In this document: in pieces, positions 3,598 to 8,692 of the stretch
How positions within the stretch are numbered: the first letter of the stretch is position 1
How the letters are laid out: the number at the start of each line of letters is the position of its first letter
Assembly: GCF_024138715.1 (NCBI RefSeq)
Contig: NZ_CP092074.1
Coordinates: 3,844,001 to 3,908,000 of the forward strand
Origin: Emticicia sp. 21SJ11W-3
GTDB lineage: Bacteria; Bacteroidota; Bacteroidia; Cytophagales; Spirosomataceae
Direction: 5' to 3'
DNA length: 64,000 nucleotides
The notes under the pieces: model-generated
What the model saw: only the letters and a program-made list of their open reading frames with translations
The model's database searches: none
What the model was told of the DNA's origin: nothing
Made by a program: the position numbers and the translations under genes

Positions 3598-3642
3598 CAG
3601 TTCTATTGGCAGGTAAAAGTGTTTACCTACACAATAGAACTG
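3598..3642. repeat. Long interrupted stem-loop over the 3' end of the small unknown gene
   Basis: CAGTTCTATTG (3598-3608) pairs with CAATAGAACTG (3632-3642), and GGTAAA (3612-3617) pairs with TTTACC (3622-3627). Together they make a 17-bp stem with one internal loop (GCA/TACA) and a 4-nt cap. It includes the stop codon of the 3627-3974 gene. There is no U-run on either side, so it is not a classic terminator; an mRNA 3'-end stabiliser is one possibility. Confidence 0.55.
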
Positions 3643-3974
3643 TAGATATTGCGTCCAATATCATTCTGGCGTTCAAGTGTCCATTTGTTAGTAAATGCGG
3701 TATGTATCCAGGAGTTTCCCACTTTCCTGAAAACACTAATCTGTAACCCTAGTTTTTCCCAGAAATACTCTTCAATCTGCTCAATTGTCATATTCGGTGA
3801 TATAATAAACACCGAAGGATTCTTCAGGCTTGAGATATCGTTCAGAGTATGGAAGGCGTCAGTGCTCATTTCATTTCCTCTATGATACACCTCTATCTTC
3901 AGAAAAGGGTAAATCTCGTTAAATGCCCTTGCTAACTGATTAACTGACATTTCCTTATCAACAACAATCTTCAT
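3627..3974 (-). CDS. Small cytoplasmic protein of unknown function, in the stress-protein operon
   Basis: This 115-residue soluble protein has no signal peptide or membrane segment. I do not recognise a named domain. The layout looks like an alpha/beta fold: an N-terminal strand and helix (MKIVVDKEMSVNQLARAFNE), a middle segment NPSVFIISPNMTIEQIEEYF, and a C-terminal half rich in aromatic residues (VFRKVGNSWIHT, TNKWTLERQN). It starts 24 bp after the universal stress protein gene on the same strand, so it is very likely co-transcribed from the Crp/FNR-type promoter at 4847-4891 and may have a related role under stress or low oxygen. No catalytic motif is visible. Confidence 0.75.
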   Translation of the reverse strand: MKIVVDKEMSVNQLARAFNEIYPFLKIEVYHRGNEMSTDAFHTLNDISSLKNPSVFIISPNMTIEQIEEYFWEKLGLQISVFRKVGNSWIHTAFTNKWTLERQNDIGRNIYSSIV

Positions 3975-3998: not shown

Positions 3999-4817
3999 TT
4001 ACTGTATTGCCAAAACCGGAACCTCGGCATCAAAAACCAGTCGACGGGTATTACCTGCAAAGAAAATCTTCTCCAGAAACCCATGATGCTTCGGAAACGT
4101 AATCAAAAGTTGAGCTTTTCTGCTTTTAACAAAACTGTTAATGGTCTCAACCTGATTTTTACCAGTCACTGTCTGAAACGTATGCGGCACATTCTTCAGT
4201 AACTCACGCAAGCTTAATTCTGCTTTTTTAATATCTTCTATTGGTAATGCCGGTGTATTGGGGGCTACATATATTACATCAACCACGGTGTCAAGGTCTC
4301 TTAAAAAATAAATAGCTTTTCCTAATACGGCGGCATCTATGGGTTTGCTCAGGTCAACCCCCATCACGGCATTTTCAAAATGCTTAATTGTGTAGTTGGG
4401 CGGTAAAACCAGCATTGGTATTTTCAATGAATCAATCATTTCGGTGGCCGCACTACCAAAAAAACCAGCGCCAAGCGGAGAGTCCCCCACGCTACTCATC
4501 ACAATCAGGTCAACTTCAAATTCTTTAGTTGCGGTTTTTATGGTATCAATTACAGAACCGTGCCTGTAACAAACCTCTATTTCTAGTGGCTGATTAACCC
4601 TGGCCATCACTCTTTTTTTTAAATCACTCAGTTTTTTGGCACTAATTCTTTTCACTTCATCAATAGGCAGCCCGTAATTATCATCATAGGTATTCAAAAA
4701 ACGGTATGCATGAAACATTACCAGGCGCGCCTGCTGCTTTATTGCTATATTTGCAGCCAGATGTGCAGCCTTATTGCCTGCCCTTGAAAAATCGGTAGCC
4801 AGTAGTATAGTTTTCAT
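3999..4817 (-). CDS. Universal stress protein, tandem UspA domains
   Basis: The protein has two consecutive UspA folds, as usual for Usp proteins near 280 residues. The N-terminal domain begins with the typical KTILLATDFS strand-loop and continues to the ILVLPPNY segment; the second begins near FENAVMGVDLSKP. Upstream ATG 4841 would add eight residues, but the family starts at MKTILLATDFS and the predicted transcript starts near 4842, so I use 4817. Usp proteins bind ATP or other nucleotides and help survival in starvation, hypoxia and oxidative stress. The gene diverges from the kinase-regulator-hemN block and is followed after 24 bp by the small unknown gene. A TATGA-N6-TCATA site at 4876-4891 is positioned to activate it. 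Confidence 0.9.
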   Translation of the reverse strand: MKTILLATDFSRAGNKAAHLAANIAIKQQARLVMFHAYRFLNTYDDNYGLPIDEVKRISAKKLSDLKKRVMARVNQPLEIEVCYRHGSVIDTIKTATKEFEVDLIVMSSVGDSPLGAGFFGSAATEMIDSLKIPMLVLPPNYTIKHFENAVMGVDLSKPIDAAVLGKAIYFLRDLDTVVDVIYVAPNTPALPIEDIKKAELSLRELLKNVPHTFQTVTGKNQVETINSFVKSRKAQLLITFPKHHGFLEKIFFAGNTRRLVFDAEVPVLAIQ

Positions 4818-4846
4818 AATGCGGAATCTGGATAGTTTCATTGCAA

Positions 4847-4891
4847 CAAAATTCTATATTTTTCGGGCCATTGAATATGAGTTTCATCATA
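4847..4891 (-). promoter_or_regulatory. Crp/FNR-type site and promoter of the stress-protein operon
   Basis: TATGA (4876-4880), six bases, then TCATA (4887-4891) form an inverted repeat with the TGA-N6-TCA core used by the Crp/FNR family. On the minus strand GAATTTTG (4854-4847) resembles the -7 box TAnnTTTG, with one mismatch. The palindrome centre (4883.5) is 36.5 bp from the final G at 4847. With a start of transcription near 4842 the site is at -41.5, the class II activator position. Identical spacing is seen at the kinase and hemN promoters. Confidence 0.6.
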
Positions 4892-4936
4892 AGTAGCTAT
4901 GATAAACTCAAAAAAAAAACATTTGGGCGGTTTCAG

Positions 4937-4984
4937 AAAACTGATATTTGTCATATTTTTAGCTTACAAAACTTCTCTTCTTTG
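4937..4984 (+). promoter_or_regulatory. Crp/FNR-type site and promoter of the kinase-regulator operon
   Basis: TGATATTTGTCA (4942-4953) has the TGA-N6-TCA core with partly symmetric AT flanks. CTTCTTTG (4977-4984) keeps the TTTG part of the -7 box. The distance from palindrome centre (4947.5) to the last G (4984) is 36.5 bp, the same as at the two neighbouring sites. It implies transcription from about 4989. The site and -7 box are weaker than those before hemN. Confidence 0.5.
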
Positions 4985-5026
4985 CTGATGAAAAACAACC
5001 CAGGTACGAGGTCAACAGTTGCGGAA

Positions 5027-6223
5027 ATGGATATATTACACCAGTCGGAGGCTATTTTCTTGTTTGCCACTGAAGGAATTTTAATAGCGGATAAGCAAGG
5101 GAAAATTGTAAGAGTAAACCCAAGCGGTGCGGCAATGTTTGGGTACGAGCCTGAAGAACTGGAGAACCTGTCTATTGAAGATCTGATTCCCGGCAGATTC
5201 CGCCATACCCATACCGAACACCGCAGAGCATTTAACGAGCATCCACATGCGCGCTCGATGGGCAGCGGCATGGATTTGTACGCCCGCCGTAAAGATGGCA
5301 GTGAGTTTGCGGTTGAAATCAGCCTCAGCCCTTATCACAACAGCAAAGGTGCGTATGTGATAGCCTTTGTTATTGACATTACCATTCGTAAAAAAGCCGA
5401 AAACAGATTGGTTTCTTATAAAAACGAACTGGAAGTGGAGGTGGAAGAACGCACGCTTGTATTAAAAGAGGCCATTCAGAAACTGGAAAAAACCAAAGAT
5501 GAACTTGATAAAGCACTAAAGCGCGAGCAAGAACTGAACCTGATGAAATCCAGGTTTATTACCCTTGCTTCGCATGAATTCCGCACACCATTGGCTACAG
5601 TTTTGTCGTCATTATCACTGGTTGAAAAATACGCCGACCTTGACGAGAACGAAAAACGCGACAAGCACATTAGTCGCATCAAATCGTCGGTACGAATGCT
5701 GACCGAAATTCTGAATGATTTTCTATCGCTCAATAAACTGGAAGAAGGCAAAGTAATTGTATCGCCTGAAACATTTGACATCAGCGAGCTAATTGACGAA
5801 ATTTGCCAGCAGATGCAGGGCATTGCAAAAAAAGGGCAAAAGATCTTGTACAACTGCATTTCAGGAGACGACTCGCACCAGGTAAGAATCGACCCCAAGA
5901 TCATCAAAAACATTTTAATAAACCTTGTTTCTAACGCCATCAAGTTTTCGCCTGAGGGCGCACAAGTGTTTGTAAGCGTACGCCTGGACGAAAACAGCGT
6001 AACGCTTCGGGTACAAGATGAAGGCATTGGTATACCGGAGGCTGAGAAAAAACACCTGTTTGAGCGGTTTTACAGAATGAGCAACGCCGGCGAAATACAG
6101 GGTACTGGCTTAGGCCTCAGCATCGTGAATCAGTACGTAAATCTGTTAAAAGGAAAAATTGATTACTCAAGCCAGGAAAACAAAGGCACTGAATTTGTTA
6201 TTACCCTACCAAGACAATTATAA
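5027..6223 (+). CDS. PAS-domain sensor histidine kinase
   Basis: Numbered from the ATG at 5027 the protein has 398 residues: one PAS domain (about 1-125), a coiled coil (about 128-172), HisKA with FITLASHEFRTPLA and phospho-acceptor His183, and a HATPase domain with N box (NILINLVSNAIKF), G1 (VQDEGIGIP) and GTGLGL. No transmembrane helix is present, so it senses a cytoplasmic signal. Within the PAS domain, His62 (segment RFRHTHTEH) falls by eye at the place of the FixL haem-ligand His, but FixL's regulatory Arg is not conserved, so haem binding is only a hypothesis. The frame is open upstream, with ATG 4988 and TTG 4841 as other starts; the promoter geometry and the PAS start favour 5027. The gene is 10 bp ahead of its regulator. 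Confidence 0.9.
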   Translation: MDILHQSEAIFLFATEGILIADKQGKIVRVNPSGAAMFGYEPEELENLSIEDLIPGRFRHTHTEHRRAFNEHPHARSMGSGMDLYARRKDGSEFAVEISLSPYHNSKGAYVIAFVIDITIRKKAENRLVSYKNELEVEVEERTLVLKEAIQKLEKTKDELDKALKREQELNLMKSRFITLASHEFRTPLATVLSSLSLVEKYADLDENEKRDKHISRIKSSVRMLTEILNDFLSLNKLEEGKVIVSPETFDISELIDEICQQMQGIAKKGQKILYNCISGDDSHQVRIDPKIIKNILINLVSNAIKFSPEGAQVFVSVRLDENSVTLRVQDEGIGIPEAEKKHLFERFYRMSNAGEIQGTGLGLSIVNQYVNLLKGKIDYSSQENKGTEFVITLPRQL

Positions 6224-6233
6224 GCGAAAAGCT

Positions 6234-7274
6234 ATGAAAAAAATATTATTAATTGAAGACAACGCTGAAATAAGAGAAAACACATCTGAAATACTTGAAC
6301 TGGACGGATATGAAGTTCTGACAGCCGAGAATGGAAAAGTTGGGGTTGACATTGCCATAAAAGAACAACCAGACCTGATTATTTGCGATATCATGATGCC
6401 TGTGCTTGATGGCTACGGTGTTTTACATTTACTATCAAAGCAAGAAAAAACAGCCTCAATACCGTTTATTTTTCTTACTGCCAAAGCAGAACGCTCTGAT
6501 TTACGAAAAGGAATGGATATGGGCGCCGATGACTACATCACTAAACCTTTTGACGATGTAGAACTGCTTAGCGCCATTGAAAGCCGCCTCAGAAAAAAAG
6601 AATTATCTAAAAAGCAATACGCGCAGGATATAACCGGCCTTGACCAGCTCATTGCCGACGCCAACGGGGAACAGGAGTTAAAGAAACTGACAGAAAACCG
6701 CGAAATAAGATACTTTAAGAAAAAAACTGAAATTTACAGAGAGGGAGACTTCCCCCTTTATCTGTATTATGTACTGAAAGGCAAGCTGAAAGCCTTTAAA
6801 ACTAATGATGATGGCAAAGAGTTTATTGTAAACCTCTACCATCCCGGCGACTTTGTTGGTTACGTTGACCTGATTCAGGAAACCAATTTTACCGATACCA
6901 TTGAAACCCTGGAAGACTCAGAAATTTGCCTGATACCCAAAAAAGACTTTAACAACCTTTTATTACAAAACCCGCAGGTGGCACAGAAGTTTATTCAGCT
7001 GCTCTCAAAAAACATCAAAGACAACGAAAGCAGCTTGTTAAAACTGGCCTATAATTCGGTGCGTAAACGTGTTTCTGAGGCATTGCTCAAGTTTTTTCCA
7101 GACAACCAGGCGTCTATGAAAATCAGCCGTGAAGACCTGGCCAGCGCCGCAGGAACCTCTCTGGAAACGGCCATTCGCACTTTATCTGACTTTAAAGACG
7201 AGAAACTGGTAGAAATTGAATCAGGCAAAATAACGATTGTTAATCCCGAAAAACTAAAAAAACTCAGAAACTAG
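6234..7274 (+). CDS. Response regulator: receiver fused to Crp/FNR-type DNA-binding protein
   Basis: The 346-residue protein starts at MKKILLIEDN. The receiver (1-122) has the acidic pair Glu8/Asp9, phospho-acceptor Asp52 (CDIMMP), Thr82 and Lys104, so it should be phosphorylated by the kinase just upstream (10-bp gap). A cyclic-nucleotide-binding type beta barrel follows (about 145-265), then a Crp winged helix-turn-helix (about 283-346). The recognition helix holds Glu311 and Arg315 (LETAIRTL); the matching residues in CRP (E181/R185) and FNR (E209/R213) contact the TGA core. Only two cysteines are present, so there is no FNR-like Fe-S cluster. The barrel may bind no ligand. TGA-N6-TCA sites flank the operon on both sides, which suggests autoregulation and control of usp and hemN. 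Confidence 0.92.
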   Translation: MKKILLIEDNAEIRENTSEILELDGYEVLTAENGKVGVDIAIKEQPDLIICDIMMPVLDGYGVLHLLSKQEKTASIPFIFLTAKAERSDLRKGMDMGADDYITKPFDDVELLSAIESRLRKKELSKKQYAQDITGLDQLIADANGEQELKKLTENREIRYFKKKTEIYREGDFPLYLYYVLKGKLKAFKTNDDGKEFIVNLYHPGDFVGYVDLIQETNFTDTIETLEDSEICLIPKKDFNNLLLQNPQVAQKFIQLLSKNIKDNESSLLKLAYNSVRKRVSEALLKFFPDNQASMKISREDLASAAGTSLETAIRTLSDFKDEKLVEIESGKITIVNPEKLKKLRN

Positions 7275-7275
7275 C

Positions 7276-7323
7276 AAATATGACCGCTATCATATTTCTT
7301 TTTTTGTAAGGCATCTACCTTTG
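7276..7323 (+). promoter_or_regulatory. Perfect Crp/FNR-type palindrome and promoter of hemN
   Basis: AAATATGA (7276-7283), six bases and TCATATTT (7290-7297) form a perfect 8-bp inverted repeat with a TGA-N6-TCA core. TACCTTTG (7316-7323) is an exact TAnnTTTG -7 box and no good -33 box lies at the standard spacing, which fits a promoter that needs an activator. Centre 7286.5 to G7323 is 36.5 bp, giving a site at -41.5 if transcription starts near 7328. The leader to the hemN ATG would be about 15 nt. Confidence 0.7.
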
Positions 7324-7342: not shown

Positions 7343-8692
7343 ATGATACAGTCAGCACTTATTGAAAAATACAACACTTCTGCACCGCGATATACCAGTT
7401 ATCCGACAGTTCCTTATTGGGACAACAGCAATTTTACCGAAGCCCAATGGAAAGAAAGCTTCATAAAAAGCTATAAAAATCAGAAGAAACTAAGTCTATA
7501 TATTCATCTTCCATTTTGCGAAAGCCTATGCACTTTTTGTGCCTGCCATAAACGCATTACGCTCAATCATCAGTTTGAGGTTCCTTATATTGAGGCTGTT
7601 CTGAAAGAATGGAACCTGTACCGCAATCTGCTGAGAGAAGCACCTCTCATTGAAGAAATTCACCTGGGCGGTGGTACACCCAGCTTTTTCTCTGCCGAAA
7701 ACCTGAAAGAACTCATTGAAGGCATCTTATCGGGTTCTAAAGTAAGCCCAACGGCAGAATTCAGTTTTGAAGGCCACCCCAACAATACCAGCGAAACCCA
7801 CCTGCAAACCTTGTATGATTTAGGTTTCCGGAGGGTTAGTTTCGGTGTGCAAGACTACGACCACACCGTACAGGTAGCTATTAACCGCCTGCAACCATTC
7901 GAAAACGTAAAGAAAGTAACCGAACTGGCACGCAAGATAGGCTATACCTCTATCAGCCATGACCTCGTTTTTGGCCTTCCTTTTCAAAATGTAGAGCAGT
8001 TTGAAAAAACCATCAGAAAAACCCTGGAGCTCGCCCCAGACCGCCTTTCTTTATACTCATACGCCCATGTGCCCTGGTTAAAAGGTAACGGCCAGAGAGG
8101 TTTTGATGAAAACAACCTGCCCAGCGCTACAACTAAACGCCAGCTCTATGAACTGGGCCGCGCCATCTTTGAAGAAAACGGCTACCACGAAATAGGCATG
8201 GATCACTTTGCCCTGCCAAGCGACTCGCTTTTTAAAGCCGGAGAAGAAGGTTTGCTTAACCGCAACTTTATGGGTTATACGACCACACAGTCTAAATGCA
8301 TGTTGGGCCTGGGCGTATCAGCCATCAGTGATAGCTGGACAGCCCTTTCGCAAAACACCAAAAGTCTTGATGAGTACATTCATCTGACAAAAAACAACAT
8401 TTTTCCATTGCTCAGAGGCCACATTCAGACAGATGAAGATATGCTCTGGAGAAACTACATACAAAACCTGATGTGCCGCTTTGAAACTGAGTTTTCGTTC
8501 GATGATTTAGACCAACACCAGATAGAACAATTGCTGGCATTGAAAAACGATGGCATTATACTTTTAGAAGATAATAAAGTTAAAGTAACTGCAGAAGGCA
8601 AAACGTTTATCAGAAACGTATGCACCGTTTTTGATAAGTACATCAGCAGTGCGGGCCAGCCACTAAGCAAAACATTCTCAAAGGCCATCTGA
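7343..8692 (+). CDS. hemN: Oxygen-independent coproporphyrinogen III dehydrogenase
   Basis: HemN is a radical SAM enzyme that decarboxylates coproporphyrinogen III to protoporphyrinogen IX without O2 in haem synthesis. The 449-residue length is usual. Diagnostic features are the N-terminal APRYTSYPTVPYW, then YIHLPFC with the 4Fe-4S motif CxxxCxxC (Cys59, Cys63, Cys66), the SAM-binding HLGGGTPSFF, and the C-terminal HemN helical domain. True HemN rather than HemW/HutW is indicated by the RYTSYPT start and the extra Cys68 (CTFCAC). The gene lies 68 bp after the receiver-Crp regulator with a perfect Crp/FNR-type palindrome between them, so low-oxygen or redox control is likely. A long hairpin terminator follows. 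Confidence 0.96.
   Translation: MIQSALIEKYNTSAPRYTSYPTVPYWDNSNFTEAQWKESFIKSYKNQKKLSLYIHLPFCESLCTFCACHKRITLNHQFEVPYIEAVLKEWNLYRNLLREAPLIEEIHLGGGTPSFFSAENLKELIEGILSGSKVSPTAEFSFEGHPNNTSETHLQTLYDLGFRRVSFGVQDYDHTVQVAINRLQPFENVKKVTELARKIGYTSISHDLVFGLPFQNVEQFEKTIRKTLELAPDRLSLYSYAHVPWLKGNGQRGFDENNLPSATTKRQLYELGRAIFEENGYHEIGMDHFALPSDSLFKAGEEGLLNRNFMGYTTTQSKCMLGLGVSAISDSWTALSQNTKSLDEYIHLTKNNIFPLLRGHIQTDEDMLWRNYIQNLMCRFETEFSFDDLDQHQIEQLLALKNDGIILLEDNKVKVTAEGKTFIRNVCTVFDKYISSAGQPLSKTFSKAI

Follow-up and report, generated by a model that had tools for sequence, protein, structure and literature searches.

The kinase and REC-CRP locus

The window analyzed here, a stretch of 64,000 nucleotides (positions 3844001-3908000) of the single-contig genome (5,177,490 bp, or 5.18 Mb) of Emticicia sp. 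21SJ11W-3, contains an adjacent pair of genes encoding a PAS-domain histidine kinase and a response regulator, termed REC-CRP, in which a receiver domain is joined to a Crp-type output. Three palindromes with a TGA-N6-TCA core lie around this pair and face, respectively, the gene for a universal stress protein (Usp), the kinase and REC-CRP genes themselves, and hemN (Table 1). Among named relatives, the regulator is closest to a protein of Emticicia agri (92% identity). An earlier note on this DNA had proposed that the phosphorylated regulator activates all three transcription units, a proposal that the sequence comparisons described below support and that appears to extend well beyond three promoters.

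Table 1. Genes, candidate sites and promoter elements at the kinase and REC-CRP locus (window coordinates)
Feature	Position	Strand	Basis or remark
P115, small conserved 115-aa protein without Pfam match	3627..3974	-	24 bp after Usp gene, same strand
Universal stress protein (Usp), two Usp stretches	3999..4817	-	PF00582
-7 box, Usp promoter: GAATTTTG, degenerate TAnnTTTG	4847..4854	-	Sequence; N27 from site 1
Site 1, TATGA-N6-TCATA palindrome (core 4878-4889)	4876..4891		Predicted centre -41.5, Usp promoter
Site 2, TGATATTTGTCA then TATT	4942..4953		Predicted centre -41.5, kinase operon (putative autoregulation)
-7 box, kinase operon: CTTCTTTG, degenerate	4977..4984	+	Sequence
PAS histidine kinase, FixL-like heme PAS predicted	5027..6223	+	PAS, HisKA, HATPase_c (Pfam); PDB sequence and fold matches
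REC-CRP response regulator: receiver (Asp52), cNMP-binding fold, HTH_Crp (Glu311, Arg315)	6234..7274	+	Pfam; residues
Site 3, AAATATGA-N6-TCATATTT (core 7281-7292; TATGA...TCATA 7279-7294)	7276..7297		Predicted centre -41.5, hemN
-7 box, hemN: TACCTTTG, perfect TAnnTTTG	7316..7323	+	Sequence
hemN, oxygen-independent coproporphyrinogen III oxidase	7343..8692	+	TIGR00538, 421.8 vs cut-off 324.95

A pattern search recovers the three cores where the earlier note had placed them, and direct reading bears out the perfect arms of site 3. Every core stops exactly 27 nt before a TTTG (a spacing denoted N27), on the plus strand at two sites and on the minus strand at site 1, and the palindrome centre lies 36.5 bp from the last G in each case (G4847 on the minus strand, G4984 and G7323 on the plus strand), which is the threefold identity of spacing that had been reported. 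There are 28 matches to TGA-N6-TCA in the window, and these three are the only ones with TTTG at N27. The description of the downstream elements as TTTG-type -7 boxes stands for the TTTG itself, which is present at all three promoters; the complete TAnnTTTG consensus is found at hemN only.

In Flavobacterium psychrophilum, the TAnnTTTG box is located at -12 to -5, as given in the relevant passages of the study (PMC9723704). If this position applies to Emticicia, then palindromes at N27 would be centred at -41.5, and those at a spacing of 49 nt (N49; see below) at -63.5; the predicted transcription starts at 4842, 4989 and 7328 would then be reproduced. The class II geometry suggested earlier is backed by comparison with relatives. 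The kinase reading frame is also open from an ATG at 4988, but a start of transcription at 4989, if true, would make this codon impossible as the kinase start, and the in-frame ATG at 5027 more likely. By direct reading, the hemN promoter has no TTG at the -33 position, where the consensus carries this triplet. Upstream of Usp, positions 4900-4910 (TGATAAACTCA) form a near-palindrome with five spacer bases instead of six, approximately 21.5 bp from site 1, and may be the remnant of a second site at the Usp promoter.

Promoter spacing across genomes

The enrichment of spaced sites that the earlier note had proposed as a check is observed both in this genome and in its congeners. In the 5.18-Mb genome, TGAN6TCA-N27-TTTG is matched 38 times and its reversed control 12 times. 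Common to the three window sites is an extended promoter-proximal half, TCATATT, and the corresponding pattern TGAN6TCATATT-N23-TTTG occurs exactly six times genome-wide: three times in the window, and once each before genes for an acetyl-CoA hydrolase, a copper-type P-type ATPase and an AhpC peroxiredoxin. With the TCATAWT form and spacings of 8-38 (31 possible), 7 of 26 matches fall at N23, and any other spacing has at most two (Poisson P of approximately 5e-6, or 0.004 without the three window sites); three of the seven lie at the REC-CRP locus. The pattern has little discrimination once two mismatches are allowed (112 matches vs 86 in the control).

The N27 spacing is not exclusive to sites of this kind, and the idea that it might be specific to REC-CRP was rejected. 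Of the 30 N27 sites inspected, six have another sequence type (TGATTTTTGTCAAGACC, TGATTTGAATCA and others) and neighbour small genes for Crp-like proteins; the four distinct proteins of this kind that were scanned each contain a cNMP-binding domain. The N27 spacing would therefore seem to be common to Crp-type activators in this organism, with specificity provided by the half-site. Three TGATTTT(T/A)-type sites that continue with TCAAGACC at N27 (G000:C1:2340049, 3023820 and 3025986; L012, L022 and L023) are near small cNMP-binding-domain genes and look like sites of other Crp paralogues. Elsewhere, identical 43-nt site stretches approximately 2.5 kb apart (G000:C1:2473670 and 2476208; L016 and L017) each adjoin a near-identical 195-aa Crp-like gene, and this pair is a recent duplication.

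Across 11 congeneric genomes, the TCATAWT-N23 pattern has 61 matches, and its reversed control 2. In every one of the 11, the window's genome included (10/10 of the others), the Usp orthologue has an N27 site facing it, in keeping with the Usp operon as a proposed target. The kinase operon and hemN, likewise proposed, are each faced by an N27 site in 4 of the 11 congeneric loci (L031-L041; for the kinase, this count includes the window's own), and site 3 recurs in L032-L034, the three congeneric loci with an adjacent hemN.

A second preferred position becomes apparent among more distant relatives. In the best 80 named loci around REC-CRP genes (L101-L180), the palindrome and the TTTG are most often 27 nt (117 sites) or 49 nt (96 sites) apart, other distances averaging 11.4 (a mean in which the 49-nt peak is counted). 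The two preferred positions differ by exactly 22 bp, or about two helical turns, the 49-nt one being farther upstream. By an open reading frame criterion, 112/117 sites at 27 nt and 87/96 at 49 nt are non-coding. The full TAnnTTTG follows 52 sites at 27 nt and 49 at 49 nt, vs 0-2 at 18 other distances. Both positions are occupied before 64 boxes (for example, L134 from 5582), only the 27-nt position before 53 and only the 49-nt position before 32, which suggests a class of promoters with paired sites at -63.5 and -41.5. Similarly, a palindrome is present in 72 of 99 upstream regions of the kinase (shuffle mean 11, maximum 20), at N27 in 21 (shuffle 0.1) and at N49 in 13 (0.12). Weak or incomplete matches were left out of this set and of the set of 102 kinases used below; the locus collections (L031-L060, L101-L180 and L271-L299) overlap in species, so that their counts are not independent.

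A strict tandem pattern, consisting of palindromes 22 bp apart followed by N27-TTTG, was found at 83 sites in 31 of 296 genomes of the phylum and not once in the reversed control. A full-length REC-CRP (best E below 1e-60) is encoded in 43 of the 296, and the tandem pattern is present in 26 of these 43 vs 5 of the 253 others (Fisher 3.6e-21, kinship ignored). The association persists within the class (26/43 vs 3/30; Fisher 1.1e-5, kinship likewise ignored).

The predicted sensor, its regulator and the downstream genes

In 100 of 109 loci, REC-CRP is immediately preceded by the kinase gene. In PDB sequence comparisons, the kinase PAS domain matches solved heme PAS domains: 10jx (2.6e-14), which by its title is the heme-binding PAS domain of FG214, Escherichia coli DosP (EcDOS; 2.6e-9) and FixL (8.2e-8). 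When an AlphaFold2 model of the domain (18 sequences, pLDDT 87.7) was used for a fold search, the first 21 of 50 listed matches were heme PAS domains (FixL, 10jx, EcDOS), with flavin-binding LOV domains (from rank 23) and other PAS domains at lower ranks. His75 of the kinase aligns without gaps with the EcDOS histidine that we take to be the heme ligand; 101 of the 102 kinases carry this residue (the window's kinase being counted twice in this set, as query and as L031). The conserved histidine and the modelled fold are consistent with a FixL-type heme PAS domain, heme itself being predicted.

The regulator has the features of a response regulator with a Crp-type output, and Asp52, Glu311 and Arg315 are conserved in 140 of 140 REC-CRP sequences (the window again counted twice); the latter two are the recognition-helix residues to which the earlier note had correctly drawn attention. 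Its only cysteines are Cys51 and Cys232. Identification as a canonical FNR was rejected on this account, the N-terminal Fe-S cysteine cluster being missing. NCBIfam models of CRP and Fnr give partial matches that are far below their cut-offs. When the regulator is aligned by hand with E. coli CRP, the cyclic AMP contacts Glu72 and Ser83 of CRP correspond to Tyr210 and Asp221; cyclic AMP dependence is unlikely because these positions differ.

The genes that follow the sites centre on cbb3 oxidase and heme synthesis, and were surveyed at three levels. In 30 loci, one per genome for 30 of the 31 tandem-pattern genomes and with 34 of the 83 sites in view, BLAST assigned the next gene as CcoNO in four cases, CcoI-type ATPase in four, HemN in two, HemA in one, Usp in two and a BON protein in one. 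In the 80 loci, which are centred on REC-CRP and therefore biased to its neighbourhood, the sites are followed by, among others, the kinase itself, Usp, hemN, hemA, CcoI-type ATPase, a cbb3-like COX1 protein, DoxX, a TerB-like protein (below cut-off), the iron-sulfur repair di-iron protein (RIC, TIGR03652) and the P115 family. The genome-wide survey comprised 60 regions and six loci of the window's genome: 38 of the 61 congeneric sites were included (15 of the remainder being of the REC-CRP/Usp locus type, seven belonging to the window's genome and one, G085:C3:537518, left out), and the other 22 regions were chosen by hand from among the non-congeneric family sites. In congeners, it added a hydrogenase small subunit, a fatty acid desaturase, a hemerythrin-domain protein (just above cut-off), acetyl-CoA hydrolase and AhpC. 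The presence of sites upstream of genes for cbb3 oxidase and oxygen-independent heme synthesis (CcoNO, HemN, HemA) is what would be expected of a FixK/FNR-type regulon.

The ccoNO upstream region was examined after the list of downstream genes had been drawn up. FixO was found in all 11 genomes of the genus, and in the 10 with a readable upstream region (the eleventh contig ends inside the gene), TGA-N6-TCA lies 49 nt before the TTT(A/G) of TAATTTT(A/G); exactly 22 bp downstream of this palindrome is a TCA half site. The final base of the box is A in eight and G in two, such that most depart from TTTG. In the window's genome, the ccoNO copy with its -63.5-type site is at G000:C1 ~3838400, approximately 5.6 kb before the window.

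Several less familiar genes also recur after the sites. Relatives of P115 directly follow them in many Bacteroidota loci, and P115 may be a low-oxygen protein. A protein of approximately 127 aa, coiled-coil-like by eye, is found after sites in several genera (L199:1597-1977, minus strand; also L188, L216, L222, L223, L234 and L239), and no Pfam match was obtained for the one that was scanned. In three genomes (L265, L266 and L269), D-lactate-dehydrogenase-like genes follow tandem sites, and both of the two scanned contain 2-hydroxyacid dehydrogenase domains.

Alternatives and relation to known oxygen-sensing systems

Taken together, these features probably represent a two-protein low-oxygen switch, in which a heme-PAS kinase phosphorylates a receiver-Crp activator of a low-oxygen programme, in a manner reminiscent of FixL and FixK. 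The FixL/DosP-like kinase would sense oxygen, which is the likely signal because the sites precede the cbb3 oxidase and the kinase has a heme-PAS-like domain. Adjacency and domain composition suggest that it phosphorylates Asp52 of the neighbouring regulator, whose active form, judging from the Crp/FNR family, would bind TGA-N6-TCATAWT palindromes through Glu311 and Arg315. Bound at -41.5, REC-CRP would activate TAnnTTTG promoters as a class II activator; the -63.5 position appears to be used as well in relatives and at ccoNO here, often with paired sites 22 bp apart. Proposed targets are Usp-P115, the kinase-regulator operon itself and hemN within the window and, outside it, ccoNO, the copper-type P-type ATPase, acetyl-CoA hydrolase and peroxiredoxin.

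Several observations weigh against this two-protein switch. Seven of the 11 congeneric loci (one of them incomplete) have no kinase-facing N27 site, and 4 of 38 congeneric sites lie inside an open reading frame, and some precede genes that look unrelated. The strict tandem pattern is absent from 17 of the 43 REC-CRP genomes, among them the window's own, in which the nearest approach is the ccoNO upstream region with a degenerate proximal site; the phylum statistics, moreover, take no account of relatedness among genomes. At 18 of the 34 tandem sites surveyed, the next gene has no match in the reference set, and at two more it matches P-type ATPase weakly; four of the 18 were scanned and contain D-2-hydroxyacid dehydrogenase domains (two), an Hsp20 domain (one) and a nitrous-oxide-reductase propeller repeat (one, L253). 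NCBIfam offers no specific name for kinase or regulator, all listed matches being below cut-offs. The position of BjFixL Arg220 and EcDOS Arg97, presumably the distal arginine, is Met95 in the window kinase and Arg in 35 of 102.

The foremost competing explanation assigns the sites to another protein of the Crp/FNR family, for which the REC-CRP operon would be merely one target. Such an arrangement would account for the five tandem-pattern genomes (of 31) that lack a full-length REC-CRP and for the other N27 site types beside small cNMP-binding-domain genes in this genome. It would also fit two genomes in which Crp-only matches, with no receiver match, adjoin tandem sites (G295:C2 23871-24652 and G315:C2 523210-524113); these suggest that stand-alone Crp regulators share the site code there, and other Crp proteins may share the tandem sites. 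We nevertheless consider it quite unlikely that another protein is responsible, given that sites of the TCATAWT-N23 type are concentrated at the REC-CRP locus, that tandem sites track the presence of REC-CRP among genomes, and that the recognition helices of the two other proteins scoring above the HTH_Crp_2 cut-off (L301, L302) differ, neither protein having an FNR-like cluster of N-terminal cysteines.

It is an unlikely but serious possibility that the system operates as described while sensing another signal, such as nitric oxide, redox state or light, or that it represses its targets. The methionine at the presumed distal arginine position, the LOV domains lower in the fold list, and the occurrence after sites of RIC, which we associate with nitric oxide, and of the nitrous-oxide-reductase repeat protein would all be compatible with a different signal; the uppermost fold matches are uniformly heme PAS domains, however, and the downstream genes centre on cbb3 oxidase and heme synthesis, while the -41.5 centres and the missing TTG at hemN fit activation. 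Chance coincidence in AT-rich intergenic DNA is so improbable as to be negligible. Although the palindrome core comprises only six bases and the two-mismatch pattern barely exceeds its control, chance was rejected on the reversed-pattern controls (61 vs 2 and 83 vs 0), the shuffles and the other distances, as the earlier note had anticipated, and is further contradicted by conservation at Usp and ccoNO.

The system closest to the proposed kinase and REC-CRP switch is the FixL-FixJ-FixK cascade of rhizobia, in which FixJ and FixK are separate proteins. The resemblance includes a kinase PAS model with the FixL heme PAS fold, palindromic sites with a TGA core, and cbb3 oxidase, ccoI-type ATPase and hemN among the genes after the sites. 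In Emticicia, by contrast, the receiver is fused to the Crp-type fold (Pfam), so that the FixJ and FixK steps would be combined in one protein, and the promoters are of the Bacteroidota TAnnTTTG type with paired -63.5/-41.5 sites. FNR and class II Crp activators share with REC-CRP the predicted -41.5 centre, the TGA-N6-TCA core and a recognition helix with Glu and Arg; the regulator differs from FNR in lacking the cysteines of an Fe-S cluster and from CRP at the cyclic AMP contact positions. EcDOS has a related PAS domain with an aligned presumed heme histidine, but the domain is attached here to a histidine kinase and has Met at the Arg97 position, whereas 10jx, the closest solved sequence, is by its title part of a one-component transcription factor. 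The parts of the proposed switch are of known kinds, and in combination they resemble a FixL-FixJ-FixK cascade reduced to two proteins.

Searches of open-licence PMC papers returned no description of the kinase and REC-CRP system, although it may be described elsewhere, and no regulator assigned to cbb3 oxidase and oxygen-independent heme synthesis in aerobic Bacteroidota. In the relevant parts of a study of a CRP/FNR meta-regulon in an anammox reactor, homologues in Flavobacteriales and Saprospiraceae are treated as MalR-like, and the term "receiver" does not appear (PMC8510549). In F. psychrophilum, cbb3 oxidase and heme synthesis enzymes are reported to be strongly induced under oxygen limitation, and the relevant passages name no regulator for this induction (PMC9723704).

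The present analysis supplies a candidate kinase and regulator, a site with an exact promoter spacing and a list of targets, all of which can be tested in culturable species. If the proposal is true, it would be a second route by which a heme sensor is coupled to a Crp/FNR activator. We lean, with somewhat less assurance than for the switch itself, towards the wider view that oxygen control in many Bacteroidota passes directly from a heme-PAS kinase to a Crp/FNR activator, the FixL-FixJ-FixK cascade being collapsed into two proteins that act through -63.5/-41.5 sites 22 bp apart on TAnnTTTG promoters, and that the P115 family and the ~127-aa coiled-coil-like protein would be new low-oxygen genes.

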